In this document: piece after piece, positions 11,572 to 53,935 of the stretch | Numbering within the stretch: position 1 is the stretch's first letter | Layout: each line of letters opens with the position of its first letter | Source: Tubulanus polymorphus | Lineage: Eukaryota; Nemertea; Palaeonemertea; Tubulaniformes; Tubulanidae | Assembly (NCBI RefSeq): GCF_964204645.1 | Contig: NC_134033.1 | Span: forward strand, 10,202,231 to 10,266,230 | Length of the DNA stretch: 64,000 bases | Direction: 5' to 3' | Program-made: the position numbers and the translations under genes | The notes under the pieces: model-generated | Databases searched by the model: none | The model's input: only the letters and a program-made list of their open reading frames with translations | What the model was told of the DNA's origin: nothing

Positions 11572-11682
11572 TTATATATCACATATTGGAAATTGGTCAA
11601 TAAAACCGGCATTTCCTAATTTTCTTCCGCAACCATTAGATCACTAAAACAAGTAACTTATTCTGTATTTTTGCGCAGGAAC

Positions 11683-11892
11683 ATGAAGAGCGCGAGGAAC
11701 ACGCGTGGCGAAATTCTACGTGGATATCGATCAATATTCTTAAGGAAATTCTTACCGTGTGTAGTGTTAGTGATAATTTTCTGTTGTGGTATTTGGTCGT
11801 CGCAATTATTTGAAACTTCATCATTGTTTCGAAAACTTTTACGTGTCGAACCCGAGTTAACAGCACAGCAGCAGCAGCAGCAGCAACAGCTG

Positions 11893-11960
<68 letters not shown>

Positions 11961-13146
11961 ACAACAGTTGTGGTGGGATGCCGTTAACAACAAAATGCAT
12001 AAAGCTGCACATGAGGTGAAGCAGCTCCAGCCGGATACAGTCAACAACACAGAACATATAGCTGCACCAGATGTGAAGCAGCTCCAGCCGGATACAGTCA
12101 ACAACACAGAATATGTAGCTGCACCAGATGTGAAGCAGCTCCAGCCTGATACAGTCAGTAACACAGTACATGTAGCTGCGCCAGATGTGCGGCAGCTGCC
12201 GTGGGATACCGTGAACAACACAGCACATGCAGCTGCACCAGTTCAGGGTAATATCACAGTTTGTAAACACTCAGGCGTCATTGATAATTTCTCTTATAAA
12301 CAACTCGATCTATCAATATTCACCATCAACTCAAACATCTGCAGCCAGTCACAACGAGGCTCCTCGAATATCAGTTTTATAATTATCGTCACGACGGCTG
12401 TAAATCGAAAACCGGAAGTGAGGCAGGCGATACGTGACACGTGGGGCTCGTGGACGAAAGACCCGCGCATGCGCGCAGCTGTAGTTTTTCTCGTGGGTTC
12501 ACCGCGCCCCGGACTCGATCCAAGGTTACTCGAGGCGTTGACGAACGAATCGCGCCAGTACGGTGACGTCATAATGACCGAATTTGTCGATGATTACAGG
12601 AATATGACGTTGAAATCGATGGCAATGCTACACTGGGTTCAGAAGTTTTGTCCTAACGCTCGCTACGTCATCAAATGTGACGATGACGTATTTGTAAATG
12701 TACCCGTTCTAGTGCGCGATTTTCCAGCGATGGATAGCGCCCAAATCGGCATGACGATGCACGGATATCTGATTGACTGGGGTACGCCGTATAGAGTCCC
12801 ATACCATAAATGGTGCGTCTCCGAACGCAACTTCCCCCATAAATACTTCCCGAAATATTGCAACGGTCCATTGTATGCCTTTTCCAGTCGACTGGTGGCG
12901 CCACTGCTGCGAGCGGCGTATTTGGTAACTCTCATTCCAATAGAGGACGTTTTTATTTGCGGAATCGTGGCCGAAAAAGCCGGAATCGAACGTAAACATC
13001 ACAGTGAATTCGAAGTATTTTGGTACTACTCTCTTAATAACAATTTTTGTAAGTTTCAAAACAAAACAATAGGTAGATTGGTTCAAAGTCCCGCATTGAA
13101 ACGTCAATACTGGGGAAAAATAAACAGCAACATTAAATGTAAATGA
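11683..13146 (+). CDS. beta-1,3-galactosyltransferase-like protein (GT31), copy 2 with expanded stem
   Basis: A 487-residue type II Golgi enzyme, the tandem paralogue of the gene at 7567. It has a basic cytoplasmic tail of about 24 residues, a membrane anchor (FLPCVVLVIIFCCGIW), a 34-residue Gln-rich tract, five 19-residue stem repeats, and then a catalytic domain nearly identical to copy 1: IRDTWGSW, VVFLVG, DDD at residues 333-335, KWCVSERNFP, GPLYAFS and EDVFICGI. The enzyme should transfer a sugar in beta-1,3 linkage in the Golgi. Start ATG 11683 follows an acceptor (CAG ending at 11678). Divergence from copy 1 is concentrated in about 15 residues after MHG and in the last 45 residues. 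The coding part is one exon. A possible poly(A) signal AATAAA lies at 13900. Confidence 0.88.
11866..11967 (+). repeat. CAG/CAA repeat encoding poly-Q
   Basis: 34 codons, nearly all CAG or CAA, interrupted by one CTG (Leu) and one CAT (His). It encodes the poly-Gln stem of GT31 copy 2 and is absent from copy 1. Such tracts are usually length-variable. Confidence 0.95.
11986..12240 (+). repeat. 57-bp coding tandem repeat in the GT31 copy 2 stem
   Basis: Five units of 19 residues of the type NNTEHIAAPDVKQLQPDTV. Three units carry NxT glycosylation sites. Copy 1 has only about one and a third units (HDVRQMPWDTV then SDTVHVAAP). The last unit of copy 2 (VRQLPWDTV) is the one closest to copy 1, so the expansion probably grew upstream of it. 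Confidence 0.9.
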
Positions 13147-23175: not shown

Positions 23176-26100
23176 TAACGATGCTGCTGATGATAATGAT
23201 AGAAACAGTCCAATCAAGTGGAAGTACAACAACTAGCTCTACAACTGTGATAACAGCCAGTCCAACTACAACTGAAACGAGAACGAGTCCAAACATTACT
23301 GAGACTACAGCCAACCCAAGTACAACTGAGACTACATCCAGTCCAACTACAACCGAGTCTACAACCAATCCAACTACAACTGAGTCCATAACGAGTTCAA
23401 CTACAACTGAGACTACAATCAGTCCAACTACAACAGAATCTACAACCAATCCAACTACAAAGGAGTCTACAAACAGTCCAACTACAACTGAGACTACAAC
23501 CAGTCCAACTTCAACTGAGTCAACAACCAGTCCAACTACAACTGAGACTGCAACCAGTCCAACTACAACTGAGACTATAAACAGTCCAACTATAACTGAA
23601 TCAACAACCAGTCCAACTACAACTGAGTCAACAACCAGTCCAACTACAACTGAGGCTACAACCAGTCCAACTACAACTGTGACTACTACCAGTCCAACTA
23701 CAACTGAGTCAACAACCAGTTCAACTTCAAGTGAGTCAGCAAACAGTCCAACTACATCTGTGACTACTGCCAGTCCAACTACATCTGAGTCGACAACCAG
23801 TTCAACTTCAACTGAGTCATCAACCAGCCCAACAACAACTGAGACTACTACCATTCCAACTACAACTGAGTCAACAACCAGTCCAACAACAACTGAGACC
23901 ACAACAAGTCCTACCACAACTGAGAGTACAACCAGTCCAACTACGACTGTGACTTCTACTAGTCCAACTACATCTGAGTCGACAACCAGTTCAACTTCAA
24001 CTGAGTCATTAACCAGCCCAACAACAACTGAGACTACTACTAGTCCAACTACAACTGTGACTTCTACCAGTCCAACTACAACTGAGTCAACAACCAATCC
24101 AACAACAACTGAGACCACAACAAGTCCTACCACAACTGAGAGTACAACCAGTCAAACAACAACTGAGACTACAACCAGTCCAACTACAACTGAGTCGACA
24201 ACCAGTTCACCTTCAACTGAGGCTACAACCAGTCCAACCACAACTGAATCCACAACAATTCCTACCACGACTGAGAGTACAAACAGTCCAACTACAACTG
24301 TGACTTCTACTAGTCCAACTACATCTGAGTCGACAACCAGTTCAATTTCAACTGAGTCATTAACCAGCCCAACAACAACTGAGAGTACAACCAGTCCAAC
24401 TACAACTGATACTACAACCAGTCCAACTACAACTGAGTCAACAACCAGTCCAACAACAACTAAGACTACAACCAGCCAGACTACAACTCAGACTAAAACC
24501 AGTCCTACTACAACTGAGAGTACAACCAGTCCAACTAAAACTGAGACTACAACGAGTCCAACTACAACTGAGAGTACAACCAATCCAACAACAACTGAGA
24601 CCACAACAAGTCCTACCACAACTGAGAGTACAACCAGTCCAACAACAACTGAGACTACAACCAGTCCAACCACAGCTGAGAGTACAACCAGTCCAACTAC
24701 AATTGTGACTACTACCAGTCCAAGTACAACTGAGTCGACAACCAGTTCAACTTCAACTGAGGCTACAACCAGTCCAACCACAACTGAATCCACAACAAGC
24801 CCTACAACGAATGAGAGTAAAACCAGTCCAATTACAACTCTGACTTCTACTACTCCAACTACATCTGAGTCGACAACCAGTTCACCTTCAACTGAGTCAT
24901 TAACCAGCCCAACAACAACTGAGACTACTACCATTCCAACTTCAACTGAGTCAACAACCAGTCCAACAACAACTGAGACCACAACAAGTTCTTCCACAAC
25001 TGAGAGTACAACCAGTCCAACTACGGCTGTGACTTCTACTAGTCCAACTACATCTGAGTCGACAACCAGTTCAACTTCAACTGAGTCATTAACCAGCCCA
25101 ACAACAACTGAGACTACTACTAGTCAAACTACAACTGTGACTTCTACTAGTCCAACTACATCTGAGACGACAACCAGTTCAACTTCAACTGAGGCTACAA
25201 CCAGTCCAATTACAACTGAGTCCAAAACGAGTCCTACCATAACTGAGAGTACAACCAGTCCAACTACAACTGAGGCTACAACCAGTCCAAATAAAACTGT
25301 GTCGACAACCAGTTCAACTACAAGTGAGAGTACAACAAGTCCAACTACAACTGAGAGTACAACCAGTCCAACTACAACTGAGTCAACAACCAGTCCAACT
25401 ACAACTGAGAGTACAACCAGTCCAACTACAACTGTGACTACTACCAGTCCAACTACATCTGAGTCGACAACCAGTTCAACTTCAACTGAGGCTACAACCA
25501 GTCCAACCACAGCTGAGTCCACAACGAGTCCGACTACAACTGAGAGTACAACCAGTCCAACTACAACTGAGGCTACAACCAGTCCAACTACAACTGAGTC
25601 GACAACCAGTTCAACTACAAGTGAGAGTACAACCAGTCCTACTACAACTGAGAGTACAACCAGTCCAACTACAACTGAGTCAACAACCAGTCCAACTACA
25701 ACTGAGAGTACAACCAGTCCAACTACAACTGTGACTACTACCAGTCCAACTACAACTGAGTCGACAATCAGTTCAACTTCAACTGAGGCTACAACCAGTC
25801 CAACCACAACTGAGTCCACAACAAGTCATACCACAACTGAGAGTACAACCAGTCCAACTACAACTGTCGCTTCTACTATTCCAACTACATCTGAGTCACT
25901 AACCAGCCTAACAACAACTGAGACTACTACCAGTCCAACTACAACTGAGTCGACAACCAGTTCAATCTCAACTGAGTCATTAACAAGCCCAACAACAACT
26001 GAGAGTACAACCAGTCCAACTACAAATGAGACTACAACCAGTCCAACTACAACTAAGTCGACAACCAGTTCAATTTCAACTGAGTCATTAACCAGCCCAA

Positions 26101-29100
26101 CAACAACTGATAGTACAACCAGTCCAACTACAACTGTGACTACTACCAGTCCAACGACAACTGAGTCGCCAACCAGTTCAACTTCAACTGAGGCTACAAC
26201 CAGTCCAACCACAACTGAGTCCACAACAAGTCCTACCAAAACTGAGAGTACAACCAGTCCAATTACAACTGTGACTTCTACTACTCCAACTACATCTGAG
26301 TCAACAACCAGTTCACCTTCAACTGAGTCAACAACCAGTCCAACAACAACTGAGACCACAATAAGTCCTACCACAACTGAGAGTACAACCAGTCCAACTA
26401 CGACTGTGACTTCTACTAGTCCAACTACATCTGAGTCGACAACCAGTTCAACTTCAACTGAGTCATTAACCAGCCCAACAACAACTGAGACTACTAGTAG
26501 TCCAACTACAACTGAGACTACAACCAGTCCAACTACATCTGAGTCGACAACCAGTTCAATTTCAACTAAGTCATTAACCAGCCCAATAACAACTGAGAGT
26601 ACAGCCAGTCCAACTACAACTCAGACTACAACCAGTCCAACTACAACTGAGTCAAAAACCAGTCCAACAACAACTGAGACTACAACCAGTTCAACTACAA
26701 CTAAGTCAACAACCAGTCCAACAACAACTGAGACTACAACCAGTCCAACTATAACTGTGACTACTACCAGTCCAACTACAACTGAGTCGACAACCAGTTC
26801 AACTTCAACTGAGGCTATAACCAGTCCAACCACAACTGAGTCCACAACAAGTCCAACTACGACTGTGACTTCTACTAGTCCAACTACATCCGAGTCGACA
26901 ACCAGTTCAACTTCAACTGAGTCATTAACAAGCACAACATCAACTGAGACTACTACCAGTTCAACTACAACTGAGACTACAACTAGTCCAACTACAACTG
27001 TGACTTCTACCAGTCCAACTACAACTGAGTCAACTTCCAGTCCAACTACAACTGTGACTACTCCGAGTCCAACTACATCTGAGTCGACAACCAGTTCAAC
27101 TTTATCTGAGGCTACAACCAGTCCAACCACAGCTGAGTCCACAACAATTCCTACTACAACTGAGAGTACAACCAGTCCAACTACAACTGACGCTACAACC
27201 AGTCCAACTACAACTGAGTCGACAACCAGTTCAACTACAAGTGAGAGTACAACCAGTCCAACTACAACTGAGTCAACAACCAGTCCAACTACAACTGAGT
27301 CGACAACCAGCCCAACAACGACTGAGAGTACAACCAGTCCAACTACAATTGTGACTACTACCAGTCCAACTACAACTGAGTCGACTACCAGTTCAACTTC
27401 AGCTGAGGCTACAACCAGTCCAACCACAACTGAGTCCACAACAAGTCCTACCACAACTGAGAGTACAACCAGTCCAACTACAACTGTGACTACTACTAGT
27501 CCAACAACATCTGACTCGACAACCAGTTCAACTTCAACTGAGTCAACAACCAGTCCAACTACAACTATGACTTCCACCAGTCCAACTACAACTGTGACTA
27601 CTACTAGTCCAACAACATCTGACTCGACAACCAGTTCAACTTCAACTGAGTCAACAACCAGTCCAACTACAACTATGACTTCCACCAGTTCAACTACAAC
27701 TGAGACTACATCTAGTCCAACTACAACTGTGACTAATATAAGTCCAACTACATCTGAGTCGACAACCAGTTCAACTTCAACTGAGGCTACAACCAGTCCA
27801 ACCACAGCTGAGTCCACGACAGGTCCTACAACAACTGAGAGTACAACCAGTCCAACTACAACTGAGGCTACAACCAGTTCAACTACAAGTGAGAGTACAA
27901 CCAGTCCTACTACAACTGAGAGTACAACCTCTCCAACTACAACTGAGTCAACAACCAGTCCAACTACAACTGAGGCTACAAACAGTCCAACCACAACTGA
28001 GTCCACAACAAGTCCTACCAAAACTGAGAATACAACCAGTCCAATTACAACTCTGACTTCTACTACTCCAACTACATCTGAGTCGACAACCAGTTCACCT
28101 TCAACTGAGTCATTAACCAGCCCAACAACAACTGAGACTACTACCATTCCAACTACAACTGAGTCAACAACCAGTCCAACAACAACTGAGACCACAACAA
28201 GTCCTTCCACAACTGAGAGTACAACCAGTCCAACTACGACTGTGACTTCTACTAGTCCAACTACATCTGAGTCGACAACCAGTTCAACTTCAACTGAGTC
28301 ATTAACCAGCCCAACAACAACTGAGACTACTACTAGTCAAACTACAACTGTGACTTCTATCAGTCTAACTAAAGCTGAGTCAACAACCAATCCAACAACA
28401 ACTGAGACCACAACAAGTCCTACCAAAACTGAGAGAACAACCAGTCCAACAACAACTGAGACTACAACCAGTCCAACTACAACTGAGTCGACAACCAGTT
28501 CAACTTCAACTGAGGCTACAACCAGTCCAACCACAACTGAATCCAAAATGAGCCCTACCACAACTGAGAGTACAACCAGTCCAACAACAACTGAGACTAC
28601 AACCAGTCCAACTACAACTGAGTCGACAACCAGTTCAACTTTAACTGAGGCTACAACCAGTCCAACCACAGCTGAGTCCACGACAGGTCCTACAACAACC
28701 GAGAGTACAACCAGTCCAACTACAACTGAGGCTACAACCAGTTCAACTACAAGTGAGAGTACAACTGAGACTACTACCAGTCCAATTACAACTGAGTCGA
28801 CAACCAGTTTAATCTCAACTGAGTCATTAACAAGCCCAACAACAACTGAGAGTACAACCAGTCCAACTACAACTGAGACTACAACCAGTCCAACTACAAC
28901 TAAGTCGACAACCAGTTCAATTTCAACTGAGTCATTAACAAGCCCAACAACAACTGATAGTACAACCAGTCCAACTACAACTGTGACTACTACCAGTCCA
29001 ACTACAACTGAGTCGACAACCATTTCAACTTCAACTGAGGCTATAACCAGTCCAACCACAACTGAGTCCACAACAAGTCCTACCACAACTGAGAGTACAA

Positions 29101-32100
29101 CCAGTCCAACTACAACTGTGACTACTACTAGTCCAACTACATCTGAGTCGACAACCAGTTCAACTTCAACTGAGTCAACAACCAGTCCAACTACAACTAT
29201 GACTTCCACCAGTTCAACTACAACTGAGACTACAACTAGTCCAACTACAGCTGTGACTACTATCAGTCCAACTACATCTGAGTCGACAACCAGTTCAACT
29301 TCAACTGAGGCTACAACCAGTCCAACCACAGCTGAGTCCACGACAGGTCCTACAACAACTGAGAGTACAACGGGTCCAACTACAACTGAGGCTACAACCA
29401 GTTCAACTACAAGTGAGAGTACAACCAGTCCTACAACAACTGAGAGTACAACCTATCCAACTACAACTGAGTCAACAACCAGTCCAACTACAACTGAGAG
29501 TACAACCAGTCCAACTACAACTGTGACTACTACCAGTCCAACTACAACTGAGTCGACAACCAGTTCAACTTCAGCTGAGTCTACATCCAGTCCAACCACA
29601 GCTGAGTCCACAACAAGTCCTACTACAACTAAGAGAACAACCAGTCCAACTACAACTGAGTTCACAACCCGTCCAACTACAACTGAGACTACAACCAGTT
29701 CAAATACAACTGAGACTACAACCAGTCCAACTACAACTGTGACTACTACCAGTCCAACGACAACTGAGTCGCCAACCAGTTCAACTTCAACTGAGGCTAC
29801 AACCAGTCCAACCACAACTGAGTTCACAACCCGTCCAACTACAACTGAGACTACAACCAGTTCAAATACAACTGAGACTACAACCAGTCCAATTACAACT
29901 GAGTCGCCAACCAGTTCAACTTCAACTGAGAGTACAACCAGTCCAACTACGACTGTGACTTCTACTAGTCCAACTACATCTGAGTCGACAACCAGTCCAA
30001 CTACAACTGACGCTACACCCAGTCCAACTACAACTGAGTCGACAACCAGTTCAACTACAAGTGAGAGTACAACCAGTCCAACTACAACTGAGTCAACAAT
30101 CAGTCCAACTACAACTGAGTCGACAACCAGTTCAATTTTAACTGAGTCATTAACCAGCCCAACAACAACTGAGAGTACAACCAGTCCAACTACAACTATG
30201 ACTTCCACCAGTTCAACTACAACTGAGACTACAACTAGTCCAACTACAACTGTGACTACTATCAGTCCAACTACATCTGAGTCGACAACCAGTTCAACTT
30301 CAGCTGAGGCTACAACCAGTCCAACCACAGCTGAGTCCACGACAGGTCCTACAACAACTGAGAGTACAACGGGTCCAACTACAACTGAGGCTACAACCAG
30401 TTCAACTACAAGTGAGAGTACAACCAGTCCTACAACAACTGAGAGTACAACCTATCCAACTACAACTGAGTCAACAACCAGTCCAACTACAACTGAGAGT
30501 ACAACCAGTCCAACTACAACTGTGACTACTACCAGTCCAACTACAACTGAGTCGACAACCAGTTCAACTTCAACTGAGTCTACATCCAGTCCAACCACAG
30601 CTGAGTCCACAACAAGTCCTACTACAACTAAGAGAACAACCAGTCCAACTACAACTGAGTTCACAACCCGTCCAACTACAACTGAGACTACAACCAGTTC
30701 AAATACAACTGAGACTACAACCAGTCCAACTACAACTGTGACTACTACCAGTCCAACGACAACTGAGTCGCCAACCAGTTCAACTTCAACTGAGGCTACA
30801 ACCAGTCCAACCACAACTGAGTCCACAACAAGTCCTACCACAACTGAGAGTACAACCAGTCATATTACAACTGCGACTTCTACTACTCCAACTACATCTG
30901 AGTCGACAACCAGTTCACCTTCAACTGAGTCAACAACCAGTCCAACAACAACTGAGACCACAACAAGTCCTACCACAACTGAGAGTACAACCAGTCCAAC
31001 TACGACTGTGACTTCTACTAGTCCAACTACATCTGAGTCGACAACCAGTTCAACTTCAACTGAGTCATTAATCAGCCCAACAACAACTGAGACTACTACT
31101 AGTCCAACTACAACTGAGTCGACAACCAGTTCAGTTTCAAATGAGTCATTAACCAGCCCAATAACAACTGAGAGTACAGCCAGTCCGACTACAACTGAGA
31201 CTACAACCAGTCCAACTACAACTGAGTCAACAACCAGTCCAACAACAACTGAGACTACAACCAGTTCAACTACAACTGAGTCAACAACCAGTCCAACAAC
31301 AACTGAGACTGCAACCAGTCAGACTACAACTGAGAGTACAACCAGTCCAACAGCAACTGAGACTACAACCAGTCCTACTACAACTGAGAGTACAACCAGC
31401 CAAACTACAACTCAGTCAACAACCAGTCCAACTACAACTGAGAGTACAAGCAGTCCAACTACAACTGAGTCAACAACCAGTCCAACTACAACTGAGTCAA
31501 CAACCAGTCCAACTGCAACTGAGACTGCAACCAGTTCAACTACAACTGAGTCCACAACAAGTCCTACTACAACTGAGAGTACAAACAGTCCCACTACAAC
31601 TGAGTCGACAACCAGTCAAACTACAACTGAGAGTACAACCAGTCCAACAACAACTGAGACTACAACCAGTTCAACTACAACTGAGTCAACAACCAGTCCA
31701 ACAACAACTGAGACTGCAACCAGTCAGACTACAACTGAGAGTACAACCAGTCCAACAGCAACTGAGACTACAACCAGTCCTACTACAACTGAGAGTACAA
31801 CCAGTCCAACCACAACTGAGTTCACAACCCGTCCAACTACAACTGAGACTACAACCAGTTCAAATACAACTGAGACTACAACCAGTCCAACTACAACTGA
31901 GTCGCCAACCAGTTCAACTTCAACTGAGAGTACAACCAGTCCAACTACGACTGTGACTTCTACTAGTCCAACTACATCTGAGTCGACAACCAGTCCAACT
32001 ACAACTGACGCTACAACCAGTCCAACTACAACTGAGTCGACAACCAGTTCAACTACAAGTGAGAGTACAACCAGTCCAACTACAACTGAGTCAACAATCA

Positions 32101-41100: not shown

Positions 41101-44100
41101 CAACCAGTCCAACCACAGCTGAGTCCACAACAATTCATACTACAACTAAGAGTACAACCAGTCCAACTACAACTGAGTTCACAACCAGTCCAACTACAAC
41201 TGAGACTACAACCAGTTCAAATACAACTGAGACTACAACCGGTCCAACTACAACTGTGACTACTACCAGTCTGAGTCCAACTGTCAGCTCATCCGCGGTA
41301 GAAACATCAACCTCCGCAACCACCGAGACGAGCCCACAAACGGATTCATCCACGTCTCCGACTGCCAGCTCCTTGACCACTGACACACCAACAACTACAA
41401 CTGAGGCTAATACAACTGCATCTTCTGTGATAAATACAATTTTGCCCCTCTTCCCGTACAGTCATTTGAACAATTTCTGCACTTTTCATAATCTCGACGA
41501 CGGAGTTAGTAATGTGAAACGGGTTCCTGGAGGTATATCTATTGGAAGCTTGAAATATCACTGGTTGAGAGTAAGTTACAATTTTTCAGTTGTTTTTCAT
41601 GAATTCTTAAAATTCACATTTTTGCGTGTTTGATGTTGGATTATGTTTGTTTAGGTATCAACAAACGGGTATGTGACACTTGGTAGAGAAATATTCAACT
41701 CTTCGTCTGCACAAGTGTTTCCGACCAGTTATTTGAGCGCGATCATAGCCCCATTCTGGACTGATTTAGACCCTTCGCCCGGAAGTGTTACTTGTGAAAT
41801 GAGCACACGAAATGACAACGACTTCGAAAAGATAAAGAATCTCACTCTTACTGCGATTCATACGTCATATCCGACGTCTTCATCGTTCGAGCCGTACTCA
41901 ATAACTGTGATAAGCTTCATAAACATACCTCAATATCCGAACTACGATTACAAAGGCAAAAAGGTATTTGGTTTAATCGAGTTTCAATCATTTCGTCGTA
42001 TCTCGTTTCTAAACACATTTGTTCTGAATCGATTAAATCCTGTTATTTTTTTCATCGTTATTGCTATTATCAGGAAGCGACCTTCCAATGCGTTCTGGTG
42101 ACGGATGGCGTTAACACGTACGGTATATTTAACTACGGTTCGATTACGATGCAGACTACGGGCGAGAGACGTAACGTTTCTATCGGATATTCGGCCGGGA
42201 AGAACGATCTCTATTTCAACCACCCGTATTCATTCACCGATAACGCTCTACGTATTGATAACACGTATGGTAATACCGGTACGTCACAAAAACTGTGAAT
42301 ATAGTTGAGAATAGTAATGACGAATATCATTGAGAGAAACCCACAGTATCATTTCACAAAACTGTTATTGTTTTTTTTTCTTACGTGTCTTGTGGAAAAT
42401 TTACCAGCTATGTTCAGAATTATCTTAATCAATGGGGTACCGACAAACCCGCCTATCCCACCAGATGGCGTGACGAGCAGTAGGTCACAGGACTCACTAA
42501 ATATACTTCGTAATTCCATTCTTCTACTCGGATATTGGTATAGTTTTCATAAATAATTGGTTCATTCAAGAGAAAAAATCATTCAGATTTAATTGAAATG
42601 TAGAAGAAATTGAACGCGGGCGACCAACCATCTACTAGCAAACCTTGCGGATCCTCGCCTGCTATACGTGGAATCATCGATTGCTACAGTAGCACCGCGG
42701 GTACCCCATTGATACTGTGGGTGTCTCTCAATGTGTTCTATCTTTTGATGAATGAAATAATCCAGGACCCATTTCTACAGTTCAGTCGGTGACGTTTGGC
42801 TCTAGAGTTAAAACGCAGCTCTAAGACTGGAGAACTTTAAACGAGAACTGTGAATCAATTTCCAGATGATATGTAGACAAATTGATACGGTTGTTAACTG
42901 TTAATGAATGAAACGAAACCGAAGAAATGCTAATTTCCTGTCTGTTTTTTTAGGTGAACTCGGTCGATTCGTTTATAAACTATCTTTCGACCGAGTAAAT
43001 CAACCCTCGGTAAATAACTACGACGCTGTATGTAATGATTGGTACGTGTCACGTGACTCAGCCGCTCCGGTCACCGCTTCCGATACGTGTCCGTGCAGCC
43101 TACAACAAGCCAAACGCGACTTTCGATTCAATGAGAGTCGCTTAAATTCCGGAACATCGAATACTTGTTACGAGGAACGTTTTGGTACCGCTGCGCAAGA
43201 TGGAACTCGAATTAAACAACTTTGCTGCTATCACAAACTATCCGACGGTACAGCGTTCCTCGCTAATACATATCCTAATGCCGGATATGTATTCAAAAAT
43301 CTACCGGACGATGTAGCCGGACATCAAGCGTGTTGTGTAAATAGTAACAACTGCGATACGTTCTATACTCTGAGACCAATCGCTACTTGTTCCAACTATA
43401 AAAACCCTTCCGTTGGTGAGTATCTCTTTAAAAAAAACTTACATAAGCAAATCATTATATTACATCTTTTGAATCGTTCCCGGAAAATATGAAGACCTTC
43501 ATAATTGCAAATGTATATACATTCAATGTTTATAGGGACAGCCATCTTCGAATTGTTTGTCAAATGACATTACCAAACTCACTGGTACCTGTTTAATTCA
43601 GTCGTTTACTCCTATATGATGTATTACAGGTACCATGATCGGCGATCCACACATTACAACCCTCGATGGTAGCCGTTACACGTTCAACGCTATTGGAGAT
43701 TTTGATCTTCTTCAAGGAATGAGCACTAGAAACCTCTCGGTACAGGCTCGACTGACACGAGTACCCGGTTCTTCATCGGCTACTGTGTTCTCAGCGTATG
43801 CCGCACAGACCGATAATTCCAGCTTAGTCGAGGTATGTGCAACAACGATCTCTAAAACACAAGATTCAAGATGACAGACATCAAATAGGCTGCGTTGTGT
43901 CGGTAGACATCTCAATAAGGTTCAATTTGAAGAATCGGACGTTAGACGGTTTCATAGAGGCAGTCATCTAAAAAGTGTCAATTCGATTGCGTCATGGATG
44001 ATTCTATCGAGGCAGTCATTTAAAGTCATTGTAAATGAAATGGATTTTCAGTTGTTCTCTTATTCAATGCTGTTGGTTTCTCCAGGTTTTGTTGAAGAAC

Positions 44101-47100
44101 GAATCTAAGATGGTTGTTTTAGTTGATCGGGTACAACAATTTGCGAGCGATGAATTTGATTCAACTGGTAAAGAATTCGGTAACGTTGCGATATTGTCGA
44201 ATACAAACGGGTCGGTGGTAATAGTCTTCAGCAACGGCTTCGTTTTAGCGGTAAGTGGCAAACGAGAGAATTGAGATATCTAGACGGATATAGTCATATA
44301 CCAAATGGAAAAAAAGATATAGACTGAGTTGAATTACAAGGACAGGAGGATTATGAAAGTTGTATGCATGGAAATACGTATGAAATACATGTATGCCACT
44401 TTATTATTAGACTCAGTTCATCATGAACATCGCTACATTTGCCCTTTGCCTAATCCAGTTTACACTCCTAAATTAGATCAATAGATTTATTGTTTTGAAA
44501 TTTCAAAATGATAACTTGGTAAAGTGTATATGATTGGATGTATGGCTGAAGTATTACTCAATATTTACGATGATTTAGCTACAATTTACGACTGTTTTAA
44601 GCCAGGGAGATGTATAGGCCCTAAGACAATACATTTTGTAGACCAATACATTTCAAGTAAAATATGTGGACGAGATAAACTATAAGTCGCACAGTTCGTC
44701 TTGAATATATTTCTAGGTGTCTTTGGGCTATAAACAACTAATCGGCAACGTTAAACTGCCGTCGGAATACGTCGGTTCAACTCGAGGACTTCTTGGACTG
44801 GTCAACGGCATCAAAGCGGACGATTATCAACTTCGTGATCGGACGTCACTTCCGGACGATAGCTCCGAATCACAACTTTATCAATTCGGACTCTCTTGTA
44901 AGTGGAGTCCACCCACCGAGGCGGCCACCTTTGACCACGTGTAATTCGATGACATCACACGATATTTAATTGCAATATCATCAGTCACTTGGCAAATTTT
45001 CGAGCTGCAATAGATATTTACCCTTTTCCTCTGCCTGTTTTAACACCTTGGTATCATCTCAATTCAGACAATTCTAATAGTTAAACCATTCTCAAAGATC
45101 TTAAGATCTTGTATCAATTACAGTGATCTTAGAATTATCACTGACTGCATTTAGATTTTTGAATTAACGGACCCCCGAGAAACGATAGTTTGTATAGTGC
45201 AGATCTCCTCCAAGGTATGACTGGATTTTTCATCGGACCGTCAGCGTCAGTATGAACATGTGATTGTATTTTTCTCCAGGGCGAGTGAAAACCGGGTCGT
45301 CATTGTTTACGGATACAACGTTCAACGACACAGATCAATCGTCATTCGTTCCTATTTTCTTGGACGATTATCGCGGCAATCTTCCAGCTCTGTTTAATAA
45401 TAACGAAACAAGATATAATTCAGCCAGCGCGGTAAGCGTTCATACGCCCCTCTCTCGTGTCTTGCAATGCTTGATAAGGTTTTCTTTAACCGGATGTTTT
45501 TTTATTAACTACCGCGTATATTAACTGTATTTTTTAAGTAAAAAACTGCCAACATACAACATAGGTCAAAGAAAGAAAAACTTCATCGAACTTTTCAATT
45601 AGAAATTTGCATACGTGTGTCCATATGACTATTTGTTAAATATATCATATTGCAGGTTTGTTTCAACTCTGAGGTATTCATGCAGTGTATGTACGACTCT
45701 GCTCAGATGGGCACCGAGGAGGCTGGAAGATCGACTGTAACAGCGTACGAGTTAGCCAGCAGTGAAATCAAGTATCTCAGTAAGTGGCGAAAACGTACAA
45801 CAAGACAGTGGAGTAAGGGAACATCTCAACGTTTCAATAGTTCCGTCAATTAGAATAACTGTCTAGTAATTGGTTTAAATGAATGAACTCAAATTTTACT
45901 GAATCTGCGCAACGCGACCAGAGACATCATCTTAGCTTTTAAACGGAATTGAAATTCAAACATTTTGTGATTTTTGTGGCGTCTAGAATCAACATTGATA
46001 AATGTCGTGGGCCGGGCCAATAATTTTGCCGATGATATTTCTAAACGCATTTGTGATCGACTATGAAACAGCTGCGTCCATTATCATCGGTTACATTCAT
46101 AAACATGGTGACTCAATCAACCAGGACTCAGTTCCACAGTTCTGAGTTAAATTTGACTCTAGAGTTAAAACATTGAAAATGAAGTAACTTTAACTCAGAG
46201 TTCACTCCAACTCACAACTGTGGAACCGGGCCCAGTTCCACAGTTTTGAGTTGGAGTTAACTCTGAGTTAAAGTTAGTTAATTTTTAATGACTTAACTCA
46301 GAGTTAAATCTTAACTCGGAACTGTGGAACTGGACCCTGAATCATGAATCAGCGCTTTCGAAATGCAACCATTAAACAAATTTCCCGGGAAGACCCCGAA
46401 CCCCTTGAAAATAGTCGCGAATTTTCCCACGGTTACTGCCTCGTGGGGTCGGATATGAGTCGGGCCGACGTCAACTTGCCTCCGCCGCCCCGGAAAAGAA
46501 TCAATCATGTTTGTGTCATTCGTTCGTGCGTCATCGGTCAATCACGCTACCCTACACTTTGACGGGTGATCATGCTACCCTATTCTCACACGGACGATTA
46601 CTACGTGCGATAACCTTGTGTTTTAGCTTTGATTTCGAAGTAAACATTTTTATCCTGTCCTTGGTAACTAGGAAATAGTACGCACCTTACGATAATAGCA
46701 ACGTACAATGAGTACATATAAATCATGTATCCGACTCTAAGGCCAGGGTCACGGCGGTCTCTACTTATACGGCGCTCATACCTGAACGCATAATTAAGTA
46801 TTCATCATTTCCCCCTCAGAAAAAAAACTTCCGACTTAATTAAACATGAATCAATCGTGTGATTTCTCTATGAGGAATCAACGCACTAATGAGTGCGCGC
46901 GCAGTCAACACCAACTACGGCAGTGACGTCTATTGCTCTTGACAAATATGATAACAATTGTTTCATTGCACTCAGGATACGTTAAATTATTGTATACACG
47001 TCTCACTTTCTGTTGGTTTGAATGGTAAACTGCCTTATTCGCAGTCCTATCGCTGTGGAGACATTGAACCCCTCACAACTCGGTGAAAAAGCATACATTA

Positions 47101-50100
47101 GTTTATACGGTATTAGTAGTACGGTAACAACGAACCCGCCCATTAAATTAATATTATCTTACAAGTTTATTTCTTTACTTAAGAAGAGATACAATACATA
47201 CAGTCATCACTATTACATAAAAGAAAAAGTTACGGAAAGTATTTCTACACTGTAAAGTGTAGTAAAGAAAAATGACAAAATGGGGACATAGATAATCTTA
47301 ACAAAAAGCTATGAACAATATAAATGCCGAATTAACATCAAGTGAGGGTGCAGTCACAGAGAAGTTGTAGCTATAATTTCAATATTATATGCCTTTTCAA
47401 ATTCTGCATGAACATATCAATGTTAGACGCTTGCTGAAGTTCAGTCGGGAGAGCATTCCAAACTCTATGGAGCGGCTGTGGTAGAAGGGCATGGGTACCA
47501 AGAACTCTCAAATATTTATTCAAAAATTATATATTAAGTGATATTTCACGATCATGAGATCTTATGTACGTACTATAGTGGATATTGTTAATTCTATGAC
47601 GTTCGTTCCGAAAAAGTTCCGTACACGCAACGCAGAGGTTTTAATCCCACCGGGAGCTTGAGCGTTATCGATTGTGTAAGCGAATTATAGCGTGCAATAG
47701 TGAATGAATATTGAATTATTTGTGTACGTTCGTTTTTTGTATCCAATTGTAGGAAATTTTCCGCCTGTTTTTAATCTGAAGCCGATAATCAACGTTGAAA
47801 TCAACGTCGCTACGCAAATCTACGTCAACGTCACGGATCCGAACGTCAATCAGACGTTCACGCTATCTCTGATCGCTTATCTGCGATCATCCGGGTCGAC
47901 CGTGACGCTTACCAATCAGAACGTCTTAACCATCCACGTCATCGACACGCAGCCAATCAGCATCGAACTCATAGCTCGCGACGTTATGCAAGCGTCGTCT
48001 GCCTATCAACCGGAAGTGAGGCTGTGTCACTGTCTGAACGGAGGAGTTTGTTCGTTCGGACATCTTGAATCGATTCTTCGTGAAACAAATACAAGTGAGT
48101 TCAACCCGATTAACCATTGCGTCACTGGCTCCATCAATACACTACCAATGACCCCACTATTCCACACCGCTAACTTTCACTCCAAAAATCGCAGTTGTTT
48201 AAGAACCTGAACTCAGTTCTTATTGTTATAATTGACAGTAAAACTAAAATTAGTTCATATTCATCGCTGCAGACTTCTAACCCTTTTCATGTCGCTCTGT
48301 AAACAACCTAGGGATTATGATAACTGACACAGTTTTATTTTACAGATCGGTTTTATTTGGCGCAATGCGACTGTCCAGCCGGATGGGCGGGCGCCCGGTG
48401 TGAGACGAGCCCCTGTAAACGTACCCCTTCACCCTGTTACGATCCCAGTTCATGTGTCGAATTCAATGTAACGAATTTCCGATGTGGCCCATGTCCACCT
48501 GGGATGAACGGCAATGGTAGTAAATGTCTAGGTATGCTATCGAATACGTCACGGCGATCTTTTTCTATACTTTCCTTGAAATTGATTAATTCGCGAATTC
48601 TATGACTCCTCGACGAAGCTAAATACATGTAGCATTAGAAGTAAAATACCTTTGTATTTGTATCACTGTGAAATGGATAAAAAAGGTATAAAACGAATAA
48701 AATGAATGTTTTACTTCAGATATAGACGAGTGTTTGGTGAATAATGGATACTGCGAGGACGGATGTACCAATACGTTCGGCTCTTTCAGGTGTGATTGCA
48801 CAACCAAAACTGGTTTCTCAATCTCGCCAACTAACTCCAGCAGATGCGAAGGTAAAAACTTTCGTTTCAGTGACAATATTACATTGAACATCCTCGAACA
48901 TCATCTAGACTCGCCAAGACACGAAACCCTGCCACACTAGTCCGAGTGCGCAGCTAGTATATCCGCAGCTTGGATGATGTCATTATTAACCAATCAGATA
49001 ACTGTTATAGCCCGGGTTTCTCCATTTAAAAAGTTAATCCATGAAATTCCGCGCGTAATAAAAGCCACCGTAGGTCTGACACGTTACACTGGCTTTGAAT
49101 CCTAGTGTGATTTAATGATGCATCCAAGACCACACATTACAAGAAAGACTTCTTTGTCATGAGATCTAAATAAAGTTCGAGTGTTTGGTAGATGAGGAAT
49201 TTGCAATTTGAATCGCGTGGTTTTATTGTATTTCAGATGTAGATGAATGCGCCTATGAAATCTATAATTGTTCGGGAACTCACGAAGTTTGCAATAATGT
49301 AGTAGGCTCGTATGAATGCAACTGTAAATCGGGTTTTACTCGCAACAACCTCGGAGTCTGCTCAGGTAAGAACCTTATTAAACTGCACCACAGGCACTCG
49401 CCGACCCACTGATATATTATCTATAAACCCGAGAACTGTATCCCAAGCCCGTCGGCGAGTGTTTGTTACCGTATCAAGATTCTACGTTTCTGATTAAGCC
49501 CATCCTTTCAAAGTGAATGCCTATCGACTGGCTGATTTTAATTCGGAAGACATTTTTGACGTGTGTTCGTTTCAGATATCGACGAATGTTTGAATCAAAA
49601 CGTTTGCGACAATAACGCCATCTGTAGCAACAATGCAGGCTCATTCTCGTGTCGTTGTAACAGTGGATATTACGGCGACGGTTATAGTTGTCAAGGTAAC
49701 CGACAGTTGTTTATTTCATCCGAAGAATCTCTTCAAATTAATTATTTTTCTACTTGAATCTCATTTACAAATAAAAACCCACAGTAGATATATAGAAAAT
49801 TGTATTTTCTAACAGTTTCGGGGTTACTTCTAAAGCCAAACGCACACGGCGCCGAAAAAACGTTTTTTTCCTCGTGAACGTGTTTTCTGTTTCGGCGAAA
49901 CAAATTTTTTGCCATGGGCTTAAACCCAATCATCAGAGAAACTAAAATCAACCCCGAAACTGTAAGACTCAAAATTCTATATATCTACTGCGGGTTAATA
50001 TTTGTTAACTCTACGCTAAAGATTAATATCAGCTCACTATAGTCTTAAATCCCATTGTTTTTCTCTGTAGATATAAATGAATGTGATCTGCCGTCTTTGA

Positions 50101-53100
50101 ACCAATGCCAGCAGTTATGCGTCAACACAATCGGTGGTCACTACTGTGATTGTTATCCAGGGTATGCGCTAAAAACTGGTAGTAACTTCGAATGTCAAGG
50201 TAAAGCTACAAATGCTTATCCGTCATTTCCCTTCTAAGCATTTACTGTCTCCTATTGTATATTCATATCAAATCGTGACTCTTATATTTTGTACATACCT
50301 CAGCAAGAATCATGACCCCAAAATACTCGGACTTGAACCAAAAAGAAGCGGGTCTCTTCATGAATCGATGAAATATTTATTTAAGTAGGCATATGTAGAC
50401 ATGTTAACGACGGACGCACTTTATTTTGCAGTAACTGCGGACAACGTTTGTAATAACGGATCAGTGTGTGCTCATAGTTGTATGAGAAATGCTGGTCAAG
50501 ACCTTTGTCATTGTAATCGCGGTTATACACTTGCTTCAGATGGATTCAATTGCCTAGGTAGGTAGACTTGACCACATCCCGGAGGACCGAACAATGGCGG
50601 TTCGAATCCCGAAATGAGTTGTAATGGTGGGTTTGAATCCCGAGTTGTAATGGTGGTACATAACGAAGATCCTTATCTTTTAATTTAAGATGAAAACGAG
50701 TGTGAAAATTTAAACCCGTGCAGCGACTTGTGTATCAACACGATCGGAAGTTTCCAGTGCGCATGTCAAGACGGTTTTAGTTTGGAGAATGACCAGAAAA
50801 CATGTTCGAGTAAGAACCCTAAGTGATATCTATTTTTTCGAAATGTTATTTAATTCAAGTGATAATGCGTGTATGTTTGATATTTGTTTCCATCTCGTGT
50901 AGATATTGACGAATGTTTGTTGTCACCGTGTGGATTGAATGCGCTCTGTACAGATCTCAATGGTACATACACATGCGACTGTATGTCCGGATTCAGCGGT
51001 AGCGGTTCCTGTGAAGGTATGTTACGGGTTATCAAGGGTATGCTACGGGGTTATGCTACAGGATGGTGCCCTAGGGGTTATACTAGGTGCACTATGGGGT
51101 ACGATACGGGGAATCGTAGAGGGTATGCTAAGGGTATCCTACGGGATAATTTACGAGTTGTCCTAGGGGTGCGCTATGGGGTATGATACGCGGAACCCTA
51201 GAGGGTATGCTAAGGGGTATCCTACGGGATACTTTACGGGGTATCCTGGGGGTGCGCTACGGGGTATGATACGGGGAATCGTAGAGGGTATGCTAGTATT
51301 CTACGGGATACGTTACGGGATATCCCAGGGGACGCGCAACGGGGTAACCTAGGAGGTGCACGCTACGGGGTACTTACTATACGTAGTATCATAGGAGTTG
51401 TGCTACGGGGAACGAGACGGGATACGCTAGATGATATGCTAGCGGGTGCACGCAGCACATAATCGAAACAAGTCACAAATGAATCTTCAGTATACGTATG
51501 TATATATGATAACCGGTGTCGCCATTTCGTTTTTAGATGTAGATGAATGTAATGAGAATCCGTGCGGAGTGAATGCGGCGTGTTTGAATTTACCCGGTAT
51601 CTACACGTGTTTGTGCGATGAGGGTTACTACGGAAATCCGGATGTCTCTTGTTCAAAAGGTACGTTGTGAAAATAACGATTGCGAAATATTCTACAGCGA
51701 AGCTTTGCGTCTTACCCCTATACACATCATCTCGTGTTACCACCAGACTTCAGTTGGTCATATTGTATCGTAGCTTATTAAAAGAATCGCGTCATCTTTC
51801 TTTCGTTATAGCTGATATGATCTACGCCGGAGAATTACGACTGAAACAACAATTCAATGCCGATTTATTGAATAGAAGTTCGATCGCTTTTCATATTTTG
51901 TCTAAGAAAATAGAACAACGGGTAAGGCGAAGAAACCGCTATTAGAGATATTCATCCGTTGAATTGTATAAATATCTGAATTACTATGTGCTCGTTTATA
52001 TTTACAGCTGAACGATGTGTTTTCAAACCAATACCAGAATTTCAAATCTGCCACGATCAATAGCTTTAGGTATGTTACCATCAAATTGAGACTAGAAATT
52101 AAGAATACTTTTAATACCCAGTCAAATACCTTCAGGTTTAAGTCTGACGCGCGAGAAATATCCAATGAAGCCGAATTTGACGCATTCATTTTTGGATCTA
52201 ATGCACCTTTGATATGTGTACAATGTATGCTTAACAGTAAATTGCCTTTATCACGATTGCCACCTTTGATCACTTGTGGCTCAGGCAAAATATCTTTTTC
52301 CAACGCCGCTTATTGTGATGACGGCCCATCTTCACTCCGACTAAACCGGAATACACTTGCTGTCTCGCGTGGAACTTTATATCTGTCTCCATGCGATCCG
52401 GCGCAAGTGTGCGCACAGTTCACATAATTCTCTAGAAACTAAGACTGAAATCTGAATTGTTTTCTTTTTGTTTGTTTTTCTAGTGAAGGAAGCACTATCG
52501 CAACTTTCTCGCTGGGTTTCAGCTCGGGTGCGAACACGCCCACGTACAGCCAGCTACAAGACACATTGAGCAGTTCAGTTAATGAGTTACCATCCGGTGT
52601 CTGCATCATCGTCGGTGTTGGAAGTGCTTATTGCACCGGGTCTGCGGTGTCTGGTAAGCCTAAGCCTTTAAATCTTACAACCTTCTCAGTTCTTCGTCAA
52701 ATCTACTCCAAGACCCAGTTACCGGTACATCAAAAAGTTCAAGTCTAAAACGGCTAAGTTTGAATTTTGTCCTCTTTGAAAACATAAGGTAACCACCAGC
52801 AGTCAAACAGAAGATTTAAATTTAACTTTTCTGTGAAAGTTGACGCTATAGTTAAATTTAGTATTTGAGTTCATCTTCAATCAGCGACTTTGAGTTTACC
52901 CTTAATCTAATGAGTGAATATAGCTCTCCTTCTGGGTCCTTTGATATATGTTCTCGATTCCCCTCTCTTCAGATTTTGATGAATGCAGCAACAAAAAATT
53001 TCACTCATGCCCTCAAACAACTGAGTGTAGAAACACGTTTGGCTCATTCGAGTGTTACTGCGCCAGTGGATATATACAGACCGGTAAATCTACTACTAAT

Positions 53101-53935
53101 TCTGCTGTCGTCATTCCGGTCTGTACAGGTACGTGCAACACACGACACTACAGTGGCAAGCGAGGGTTCCTCTGACAAACTAAACTTTTTTTTCTAAATT
53201 TTTTTTTTAGATGTGAACGAGTGTTTGACCGTATGTAAATCTGCGAGTACTGATTGTGTAAACACTGCTGGAGGTTATACGTGTACTTGCAAAACCGGTT
53301 ACGTCACGAATGGAGCCGTGAATATATCCGCTTCCGGTTGTTCAGGTACGAGTAATGACACCATGCGAATACGTCATTTTGGCCGTAAACTTGGTATTTA
53401 AACCTCGGTCGCCGCTAACACATGACTGCCAAAATGACGCACCGCGACTTTAGATAAATAACCCATACAGCGGTTGTTGAAAGAGTGTCACGCGTATTGT
53501 CGGTCATAATTTCGGGCTGTGACTTGTCGTGACTTCAGTGAATCTTTTTCTTAAATGACCCGATTTTTGTATAATTTTAACATCCCGTTTCTATATTCAG
53601 TGATTTGTGTTATTATCGATTTTGTAGTAAGTGAAGTAAGTGGTGATTACTCGAATAGGACATTAGGTATTCTACTCGGGGGTCTACTAGGCGGTACCGT
53701 TGTTATACTGCTGATTGTACTGATCGTACTGAAATTGGTGGTGCCGTCGTCGGAGCGTTCCGTTACTCAAACACCAGTGAGAAGATTCAAACCTCCGTCC
53801 CCGACACGAGGAGCTGATGACGACCAGGCGGAAACTCGTCTTCCCTGGTGGAAACGTGTGCTGACACCTATAACTCGACCGACCAACAGAATCCAAGTCC
53901 AGCCTGCATCCGAACCCGGTACATCAATGGCGTGA
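23176..53935 (+). CDS. giant transmembrane mucin (repeat domain, NIDO, AMOP, VWD, EGF, SEA, TM)
   Basis: A cell-surface mucin of about 7,560 residues from ATG 23181. Exons: 23176-41570, 41655-41963, 42074-42278, 42954-43415, 43630-43832, 44086-44250, 44717-44897, 45280-45431, 45656-45779, 47753-48094, 48346-48531, 48720-48851, 49237-49365, 49576-49695, 50071-50199, 50432-50557, 50690-50809, 50903-51016, 51537-51659, 51812-51921, 52008-52069, 52484-52653, 52973-53128, 53211-53345, 53601-53935. Every junction is GT-AG and keeps frame. Domain order: Thr/Ser/Pro/Glu repeats, NIDO, AMOP, VWD with GDPH, an NFPP linker, EGFs, SEA, two EGFs, membrane helix, tail of about 75 residues. NIDO-AMOP-VWD is the MUC4 core; EGF-SEA-EGF-TM is the stalk of MUC3/13/17-type mucins. 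Expected role: a heavily O-glycosylated barrier or matrix anchor on epithelium. The start is uncertain (see 16334). Confidence 0.88.
23214..41265 (+). repeat. 27-bp coding tandem array, about 670 units, encoding mucin repeats
   Basis: The unit is 9 residues of the type TTTESTTSP, with common variants [18 protein letters not shown] and TSTEATTSP. The array runs for about 18 kb without a stop. Length changes seen are multiples of 3: one extra codon near 34232 (SLTTIP) and a 15-bp loss near 28755 and 38468 ([11 protein letters not shown]). Every unit offers many O-glycosylation sites and one Glu. Above the unit there is a higher order of about 999 bp (37 units) and kilobase block duplications. 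Unique Ser/Thr-rich sequence follows from about 41270. Confidence 0.95.
41655..42278 (+). CDS. mucin exons encoding the NIDO domain
   Basis: Exons 41655-41963 (phase 0 to 0) and 42074-42278 (phase 0 to 1). The domain starts at the end of the repeat exon (PLFPYS then NLDDGVS) and continues with [24 protein letters not shown], and then [20 protein letters not shown] and IGYSAG. These match the NIDO consensus found in nidogen, MUC4 and alpha-tectorin. Its biochemical role in these proteins is not firmly known; it is an extracellular beta-rich module. Confidence 0.88.
42600..42720 (-). repeat. dispersed repeat, copy B, inside mucin intron
   Basis: The minus strand repeats the motif order of 21968-22060: GGGGTACCCGCGGTGCTAC, CAATCGATGATTCCACG, then TTTGCTAGTAGATGGTTGGT. 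A 12-bp piece, CAATGGGGTACC, also occurs at 42431 in the opposite orientation, so the insert may extend over about 42431-42720 with inverted ends. Confidence 0.6.
42954..43415 (+). CDS. mucin exon encoding the AMOP domain
   Basis: One phase 1-1 exon. After a short link ([18 protein letters not shown]) comes the Cys-rich module: [42 protein letters not shown], then [19 protein letters not shown]. The CPCSLQQA..D and QxCCYxxxDG patterns are diagnostic of AMOP, a domain of MUC4, SUSD2 and related adhesion proteins. Confidence 0.88.
43630..45779 (+). CDS. mucin exons encoding the VWD domain and its C-terminal partner region
   Basis: Five exons: 43630-43832, 44086-44250, 44717-44897, 45280-45431 and 45656-45779. 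The first opens with [20 protein letters not shown] (GDPH codons at 43641-43652), the classic VWD start. The third has the closing block [20 protein letters not shown]. The fourth has the linker typical after VWD in MUC4-type proteins ([12 protein letters not shown]). The fifth carries the conserved CxxNxxxxxxCMYD-like pair ([20 protein letters not shown]). GDPH is the motif at which several mucins cut themselves between Asp and Pro. Confidence 0.88.
46129..46227. mobile_element. MITE, first of an adjacent pair
   Basis: Ends CAGTTCCACAGTT and AACTGTGGAACC are inverted copies; the inner arms (GAGTTAAA, ACTTTAACTCAGAG) also pair. It lies in the long intron between exons 45656-45779 and 47753-48094. 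Confidence 0.7.
46231..46333. mobile_element. MITE, second of an adjacent pair
   Basis: Same family as 46129-46227, starting three bases after it. Arms CAGTTCCACAGTTTTGAGTT and, in reverse, AACTCGGAACTGTGGAACTG; the inner TTAACTCTGAGTTAAAG pairs with CTTAACTCAGAGTTAA. A weakly related piece may lie at about 42775-42860. Confidence 0.7.
47145..47640 (-). mobile_element. 3' end of a non-LTR retrotransposon (LINE), decayed
   Basis: The minus strand reads [20 protein letters not shown], then, after an in-frame stop at 47527-47529, [40 protein letters not shown] and RHIILKL, ending at 47371. The VWNALPxELQ..xxIDxFxxxLKxHI pattern is the usual C-terminal tail of LINE reverse transcriptase proteins. 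A 3' UTR-like segment ending in AATAAA follows to about 47145. It lies antisense in a mucin intron. Confidence 0.7.
47753..48094 (+). CDS. mucin exon: NFPP linker module and start of first EGF
   Basis: A phase 1-1 exon beginning [20 protein letters not shown], with [11 protein letters not shown] and a beta-rich run ending in ARDVMQASS. An NxPP opening followed by such a beta-rich domain sits after the VWD region in MUC4-type proteins. The end ([17 protein letters not shown]) begins the first EGF-like module. Confidence 0.75.
48346..51659 (+). CDS. mucin exons: membrane-distal EGF-like series
   Basis: Nine exons, all phase 1-1: 48346-48531 (end of the first EGF plus a second, [13 protein letters not shown]), 48720-48851, 49237-49365, 49576-49695, 50071-50199, 50432-50557, 50690-50809, 50903-51016 and 51537-51659. 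Most begin with DIDEC, DVDEC, DINEC or DENEC, the calcium-binding EGF start; the one at 50432 ([10 protein letters not shown]) lacks that consensus. Identical exon phases explain how such modules multiply by exon shuffling. They should form a stiff calcium-bound stalk between VWD and SEA. Confidence 0.85.
49776..49996. mobile_element. MITE in mucin intron, about 220 bp
   Basis: Long inverted repeats: left ACCCACAGTAGATATATAGA, right TCTATATATCTACTGCGGGT. A second paired block, ACAGTTTCGGGGTT, lies inside left with AACCCCGAAACTGT inside right. No coding capacity. Confidence 0.75.
50595..50665 (+). repeat. two-copy repeat carrying a B-box-like motif
   Basis: ATGGCGGTTCGAATCCCGAA and ATGGTGGGTTTGAATCCCGA lie about 30 bp apart, each followed by GAGTTGTA. 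Probably a duplicated scrap of a tRNA-derived SINE inside a mucin intron. Confidence 0.4.
51017..51440 (+). repeat. intronic minisatellite, 82-83-bp unit made of short GGGGTATnCTAC motifs
   Basis: Variants of CTACGGGGTATGATACGGGG fill most of the intron between exons 50903-51016 and 51537-51659. The phrase GAGGGTATGCTA recurs at about 51119, 51201 and 51284, giving the 82-83-bp higher unit. It begins directly at the splice donor. Confidence 0.85.
51812..52653 (+). CDS. mucin exons encoding the SEA domain
   Basis: Three exons, 51812-51921 (phase 1 to 0), 52008-52069 (0 to 2) and 52484-52653 (2 to 1), together a 1-1 cassette. The product has [20 protein letters not shown] and [11 protein letters not shown], then [20 protein letters not shown], then [16 protein letters not shown] and the closing [13 protein letters not shown]. 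The order and spacing fit SEA. The G-S pair (codons 52488-52493) sits where MUC1-type SEA domains, with GSVVV, break their own chain; here it reads GSTIA. Confidence 0.82.
52973..53345 (+). CDS. mucin exons: membrane-proximal EGF-like pair
   Basis: Exons 52973-53128 ([20 protein letters not shown], then [13 protein letters not shown]) and 53211-53345 ([18 protein letters not shown], then [13 protein letters not shown]), both phase 1-1. They lie after SEA and before the membrane segment, the EGF-SEA-EGF order seen in vertebrate membrane mucins. Confidence 0.82.
53601..53935 (+). CDS. mucin last exon: membrane segment and cytoplasmic tail
   Basis: Acceptor TATATTCAG, phase 1. After a short link with an NRT glycosylation site comes the hydrophobic helix [20 protein letters not shown] and LIVLKLVV (about 53660-53745), then a tail of about 75 residues with [20 protein letters not shown] and a WWKR patch. 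The stop is TGA at 53933-53935. The stop overlaps GTGAGT, which could act as an alternative donor. Confidence 0.85.

Follow-up and report, generated by a model that had tools for sequence, protein, structure and literature searches.

A predicted membrane mucin gene that combines a MUC4-type core with an EGF-SEA-EGF stalk

Gene model and domain order

The window analysed here is a stretch of DNA of 64,000 nucleotides. On its plus strand, 25 exons with GT-AG splice sites between positions 23176 and 53935 join in phase to encode a protein of 7,550 amino acids, counted from the first in-frame ATG, with a single stop codon at the very end. This protein begins with repeats rich in threonine, serine and proline (PTS, about 6,090 residues), followed by a NIDO domain, an AMOP-like domain, a VWD domain, a C8-3-like domain, a further domain of MUC4 type and ten EGF domains. 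The EGFs lead into a SEA domain, two more EGFs, a membrane helix and a tail. Both EGF counts, ten before and two after SEA, were obtained by reading the exons. The features are as follows.

23176 to 41570, plus strand: exon 1, PTS repeats (23239-41271), with the first in-frame ATG at 23181; the 3' end enters the NIDO domain.
41655 to 42278, plus strand: exons 2-3 (41655-41963, 42074-42278), NIDO domain; Pfam NIDO 83.7 bits (cut-off 25); exon-end phases 0 and 1.
42954 to 43415, plus strand: exon 4, end of NIDO and AMOP-like domain, by alignment to an approximate human MUC4 sequence and a paralogue on contig C4.
43630 to 45431, plus strand: exons 5-8 (43630-43832, 44086-44250, 44717-44897, 45280-45431), VWD domain with GDPH; Pfam VWD 45.2 bits (cut-off 22.9).
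45656 to 45779, plus strand: exon 9, C8-3-like domain of MUC4; Pfam C8-3_MUC4 15.8 bits, below the cut-off of 25.
47753 to 48531, plus strand: exons 10-11 (47753-48094, 48346-48531), domain that follows C8-3 in MUC4 and EGFs 1-2, by collinearity with the approximate human MUC4 sequence.
48720 to 51659, plus strand: exons 12-19, eight EGF exons, all of phase 1-1; Pfam EGF_CA and phases.
51812 to 52653, plus strand: exons 20-22 (51812-51921, 52008-52069, 52484-52653), SEA domain with EGSTIA; Pfam SEA 36.9-42.2 bits; outer phases 1-1, inner phases 0 and 2.
52973 to 53345, plus strand: exons 23-24 (52973-53128, 53211-53345), two EGFs after SEA, by exon reading; phases 1-1.
53628 to 53935, plus strand: exon 25, membrane helix (19-residue hydropathy maximum 2.95), cytoplasmic tail and stop codon.

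Exon 1 is read in one frame that stays free of stops across 23176-41600, with 168 and 631 stops in the other two. The region ahead of NIDO comprises 6,089 residues, 82.2% of which are proline, threonine or serine (50.9% threonine), and contains no cysteine. The repeat is of the type SPTTTESTT, and the arrays reported by TRF are multiples of 27 bp. Since exon 1 is preceded by a splice acceptor and the signal-like stretch at ATG 23181 is very short, an additional coding exon further upstream is possible. A search for such an exon found none, and the start of the protein is uncertain. At the other end of the gene, an alternative in-frame acceptor about 30 bp upstream of exon 25 is also possible.

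A first-pass annotation of this DNA had proposed a single chain of 25 exons running from the repeats through the tail, and this chain is borne out by the in-phase GT-AG join and by the matching domain order of two paralogues (below). The same annotation raised a fusion by phase 1-1 exon cassettes as one possibility. Junctions of phase 1-1 are found at the exons for EGFs and on either side of SEA, but not in the NIDO and VWD exons or the interior of SEA, where phases 0 and 2 occur. An additional exon at 42408-42479 with good splice signals and phase was dropped from the model because the direct join matches TGNTGVIGQWLYKV of the C4 paralogue; the core and post-repeat queries used for Pfam and for the paralogue search still contained 24 spurious residues from this rejected exon. 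The intron ahead of the last EGF exon before SEA contains an 83-bp tandem repeat (51086-51346). In the intron between exons 9 and 10, a repeated motif like TTAACTCAGAGTTAA occurs with relatives at 46120-46340, possibly as the remains of a small mobile element. Searches within the window found no RNA families above threshold and no tRNAs.

The domains were scored by running Pfam on the post-repeat part of the protein. In this run SEA scored 36.9 bits against a cut-off of 26.4; when the SEA domain was queried alone the score rose to 42.2 bits, and a shorter piece scored 41.3 bits. EGF_CA reached 186.8 bits (cut-off 27), with nine stretches across the whole window protein. The VWD domain contains GDPH at residue 6459 (zero-based), and the SEA motif EGSTIA has G-S at the right place, with T-I-A after it. 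For the C8-3 domain, the score in the list compares with 48.4 bits for C8-3 of the approximate human MUC4 sequence. For AMOP, two Pfam runs with the window mucin gave no match, and a third gave 11.4 bits, short of the cut-off of 25. In the whole genome, the AMOP profile found four places (6 rows, with a top score of 92.2 bits), all of them outside the window gene and the genes on C4. The approximate human MUC4 was likewise without a Pfam match to AMOP, although this control is imperfect because the human fragment begins within the domain or at its boundary. Exon 4 encodes a CPCSLQQ stretch and cysteines that align with the approximate human MUC4 and with the C4 paralogue. Since this domain stays below the Pfam cut-off and, outside this genome, is aligned only to the approximate human MUC4, we name it AMOP-like. 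Among the domains that the first-pass annotation had named, NIDO, VWD, EGF and SEA score above their Pfam cut-offs and AMOP falls below, and the identification of SEA, on which the proposed architecture depends, holds. A search of the PDB returned weak matches to the EGF region for the core, and weak matches of SEA to ADGRF1 and TMPRSS6.

Paralogues and other family members in the genome

Searches of the same genome with the core and with the SEA-to-tail part of the window mucin identified two paralogues on contig C4, at about 1.498-1.507 Mb and at 0.585-0.594 Mb, and 46,000 surrounding bases were read. Both have the domain order of the window gene. By reading, the first paralogue encodes NIDO, an AMOP-like domain, VWD, a C8-3-like domain, the further domain, ten EGFs, SEA, two EGFs and a membrane helix. 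Its product is identical to the window protein at 533 of 1,425 aligned residues (37.4%), and both GDPH and G-S are present as in the window mucin. Of the 24 window introns, 21 have a counterpart of equal phase in the first paralogue, at most three alignment columns away. The three unmatched introns are located within VWD, at the end of VWD and before the membrane exon; the mismatch at the end of VWD coincides with a doubtful 30-bp intron of the C4 model that is not credible as modelled. This model also contains a phase-2 intron in NIDO that is absent from the window gene. All introns of the first paralogue from VWD to the membrane helix measure 485 bp or less. Exons 9 and 10 of the window gene are separated by an intron of 1,973 bp (45780-47752); at this junction the first paralogue has an intron of 76 bp in the same phase. 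The second paralogue is a near-copy of the first, with 97.1% identity in exon DNA, all 27 of 27 exons mapped and no internal stop. Both the exon chain and the two paralogues on C4 therefore speak for a MUC4-type core and an EGF-SEA-EGF stalk in one gene.

The SEA near the membrane in the first paralogue reaches 17.7 bits where Pfam requires 26.4, yet it aligns with the window SEA by position and intron phase. A survey by Pfam cut-offs alone would therefore miss this domain. Both C4 genes contain two EGF exons upstream of NIDO. Reading of the first paralogue suggests two more, putative SEA domains upstream of NIDO at about 1.5075-1.5140 Mb (L003, L004), one with the motif G-S-V-I-V and the other with S-S-V-L-V, and T/S-rich repeats on both sides of the farther one. 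For the second paralogue (0.594-0.596 Mb; L006), the stretch read ends before the farther SEA and shows the nearer one together with T/S-rich repeats.

A genome-wide NIDO profile lists the window and one other place, C1:21901819-21902612 on the minus strand (best 61.7 bits), and does not list the C4 genes. The corresponding SEA profile gave 8 rows, all outside C4 and the window gene; the window SEA that it missed is split over three exons. Since the genome searches for NIDO, SEA and AMOP miss known members, other members of the family may have been missed as well. Five other SEA places were read (L007-L011; on C8, C2 and C9, the last at 2.53 Mb), and three of them (L007, L010, L011) enter T/S-rich repeats. 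The genome may hold many more SEA mucin-like genes. An intron layout with phase 1 outside and phases 0 and 2 inside fits the window SEA and, by reading, all three SEAs of the first C4 paralogue. We set this layout aside as a proof of common descent, because at least one unrelated SEA gene, L009, seems to be similar.

The genome also contains a bantam microRNA hairpin that scores 62.9 bits against a cut-off of 61 (1.9 bits over), with the whole hairpin covered and the seed present. Bantam is not known outside protostomes, and the host animal is therefore a probable protostome. A genome search for COX1, whose mitochondrial code might have placed the animal, yielded no match.

Relation to vertebrate and cnidarian mucins

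Of the features of MUC4-type mucins, NIDO, VWD with GDPH, PTS repeats in one large exon, EGFs and a membrane helix are present in the window mucin, while AMOP and C8-3 stay below their Pfam cut-offs. By BLASTP, the window protein and the approximate human MUC4 share one collinear match of 582 columns (28.5% identity, E 3e-53), which begins in AMOP and extends into the second EGF. As far as the human sequence used can be trusted, this match exceeds a mere sharing of domain names: the AMOP-like domain, VWD, the C8-3-like domain, the following domain and EGF are collinear in the two proteins, and vertebrate MUC4 also has GDPH in VWD and a membrane anchor. In contrast, three EGF-like domains are reported for MUC4beta (PMC5039420) where the window mucin has ten plus two. 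Vertebrate MUC4 is also described in that source as lacking the SEA domain that the window mucin contains. The presence of SEA therefore makes the window mucin a MUC4-type homologue and not a vertebrate-style MUC4.

Mucins of the MUC3/MUC12/MUC17 type have the order EGF-SEA-EGF-TM. This order after a PTS region, a feature of SEA-type membrane mucins (MUC3, 12, 13 and 17), is present in the window mucin. In both, a large PTS exon, which is exon 2 in MUC3 (PMC9578598), precedes a SEA close to the membrane. The MUC3/12/13/17-type mucins are not known to contain the NIDO-AMOP-VWD core, whereas the window mucin has NIDO and VWD. The SEA of MUC1 carries the motif GSVVV (PMC9564314) and that of the window mucin GSTIA.

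A related combination has been published for sea anemones, and this limits the novelty of the window gene (PMC9080433). According to this source, anemone mucin4-like proteins contain NIDO, AMOP, VWD, PTS regions and a membrane helix, as does the window mucin with its AMOP-like domain, and some of them have a SEA near the C-terminus. SEA-bearing examples are given for A. tenebrosa (Actinia tenebrosa), N. annamensis, C. polypus and A. elegantissima, and mucin4-like was not found in N. vectensis and Hydra. The same source attributes to Zaretsky & Wreschner 2013 the idea of a SEA-bearing ancestor from which MUC4 arose with loss of SEA. The anemone proteins come from a different phylum than the window mucin, and the passages of PMC9080433 on them give no exon structure. 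Its main text mentions EGF a single time, in the introduction, and so does not describe EGFs for these proteins. Mucin4-like skeletal proteins of corals contain NIDO, AMOP, VWD and EGF, as does the window mucin with its AMOP-like domain; they also contain TSP1 repeats, and the passages of PMC4890752 on them make no mention of SEA. Among the matches listed from the open-access literature, no protostome report of NIDO-AMOP-VWD with SEA was found. To this the window gene adds a probable protostome case, an account of the exon structure and two sites at which the protein may cleave itself, GDPH and the G-S of SEA.

Origin and possible function of the combined architecture

We conclude that the window very probably contains one gene for a MUC4-type, type I membrane mucin with the EGF-SEA-EGF-EGF stalk of SEA-type mucins. 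Since SEA is found at the same place in all three genes of this genome, the combination most likely predates their split. The architecture is probably older than this split, with a vertebrate MUC4 that has no recognisable SEA, and common ancestry with the anemone form is somewhat favoured over independent fusion. The first-pass annotation had considered both an ancestral full architecture from which the vertebrate types lost parts and a lineage-specific fusion. The former is plausible but, given the work on anemones (PMC9080433), not new.

A fusion, in which a MUC4-type gene of this lineage gained SEA as a phase 1-1 cassette independently of the anemone cases, is in our view a possible but less likely alternative. 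The phase-1 introns that flank SEA and the other SEA matches in the genome make an independent gain possible; the genes that enter T/S-rich repeats and the two extra upstream SEAs that were read in one C4 paralogue point the same way. Moreover, PMC9080433 reports SEA in just a part of the anemone mucin4-like proteins and did not find the gene in N. vectensis and Hydra. On the other hand, the three genes of this genome all carry SEA between EGFs beside the membrane, and its C-terminal position recurs in the anemones (PMC9080433).

The ancestral reading can be extended to a proposal that we regard as quite unlikely and offer only tentatively. Here, PTS-NIDO-AMOP-VWD(GDPH)-EGFs-SEA(G-S)-EGFs-TM would be the original animal membrane mucin that existed before the split of cnidarians and bilaterians, and MUC4 and the MUC3/12/13/17-type mucins would be reduced descendants, each keeping one self-cleaving joint. 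The SEA of MUC1 has been described as derived from perlecan (PMC9564314), which disfavours one origin for every membrane mucin, and MUC1 need not belong to this group.

It is improbable that vertebrate MUC4 keeps a diverged and unrecognised SEA between its EGFs, in which case the architecture described here would simply be that of MUC4. The position between EGFs would suit such a domain, and the SEA of the C4 paralogue likewise scores under the Pfam cut-off. Nevertheless, the inter-EGF region of the approximate human MUC4 gave no Pfam match. Comparison with a profile built from four SEAs of the window family gave 10.1, whereas 12 shuffles scored 8.9-12.6 and seven other pieces of the same MUC4 sequence 7.8-13.9, although a single approximate human sequence makes this a weak test. 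By these comparisons, SEA of vertebrate MUC4 appears to be either lost or beyond the reach of the Pfam and profile tests.

Finally, it is very unlikely, almost to the point of exclusion, that the NIDO-VWD and EGF-SEA-TM parts are two neighbouring genes wrongly joined in the model: the long intron between exons 9 and 10 would be a natural place for a gene border, but the first C4 paralogue keeps the domain order, shares introns with the window gene and has only short introns between the halves (76 bp in the same phase at this very junction), the second C4 near-copy maps exon by exon, and the approximate human MUC4 is collinear across the junction.

As the product of one gene, the window mucin could act as a tethered glycan brush with two weak points. 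The repeat region of about 6,000 residues would be heavily O-glycosylated and form an extended brush above the epithelial surface, which suggests a barrier role, and the NIDO-AMOP-VWD core together with the ten EGFs would hold this brush off the membrane. The SEA near the membrane may fold, cleave itself at G-S and keep the two halves together as a breakaway joint. Self-cleavage between G and S is known from the SEA of MUC1 (PMC9564314); because GSTIA differs from GSVVV, we treat G-S of the window SEA as a candidate site. The second weak point would be GDPH in VWD, where the Asp-Pro bond may be cut, as it is in other proteins with VWD. Such cleavage after translation is described in PMC10880436, and for MUC4 it is called putative in PMC8660890. 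The window mucin thus offers two candidate self-cleavage sites that could be studied jointly in one protein.

With three genes that carry both halves in a probable protostome and the published anemone cases, the loss of SEA in the MUC4 line becomes testable by a tree that covers multiple phyla. The same distribution calls into question the statement of a vertebrate origin.

Two stop-to-stop open reading frames of the galactosyltransferase family are located upstream of the mucin gene on the plus strand, at 7507-8667 and 11620-13143 (Pfam Galactosyl_T, 157.5 and 160.4 bits). In the latter, the catalytic domain is preceded by a run of CAG (poly-Q) and by a minisatellite of 57 bp. Enzymes of the galactosyltransferase type can build mucin glycans, so that the clustering of these reading frames with a mucin gene may deserve a look. 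On the minus strand, a stop-to-stop open reading frame of 1,013 amino acids (57544-60582) encodes leucine-rich repeats and a Roc GTPase domain, with matches to COR below the cut-off.
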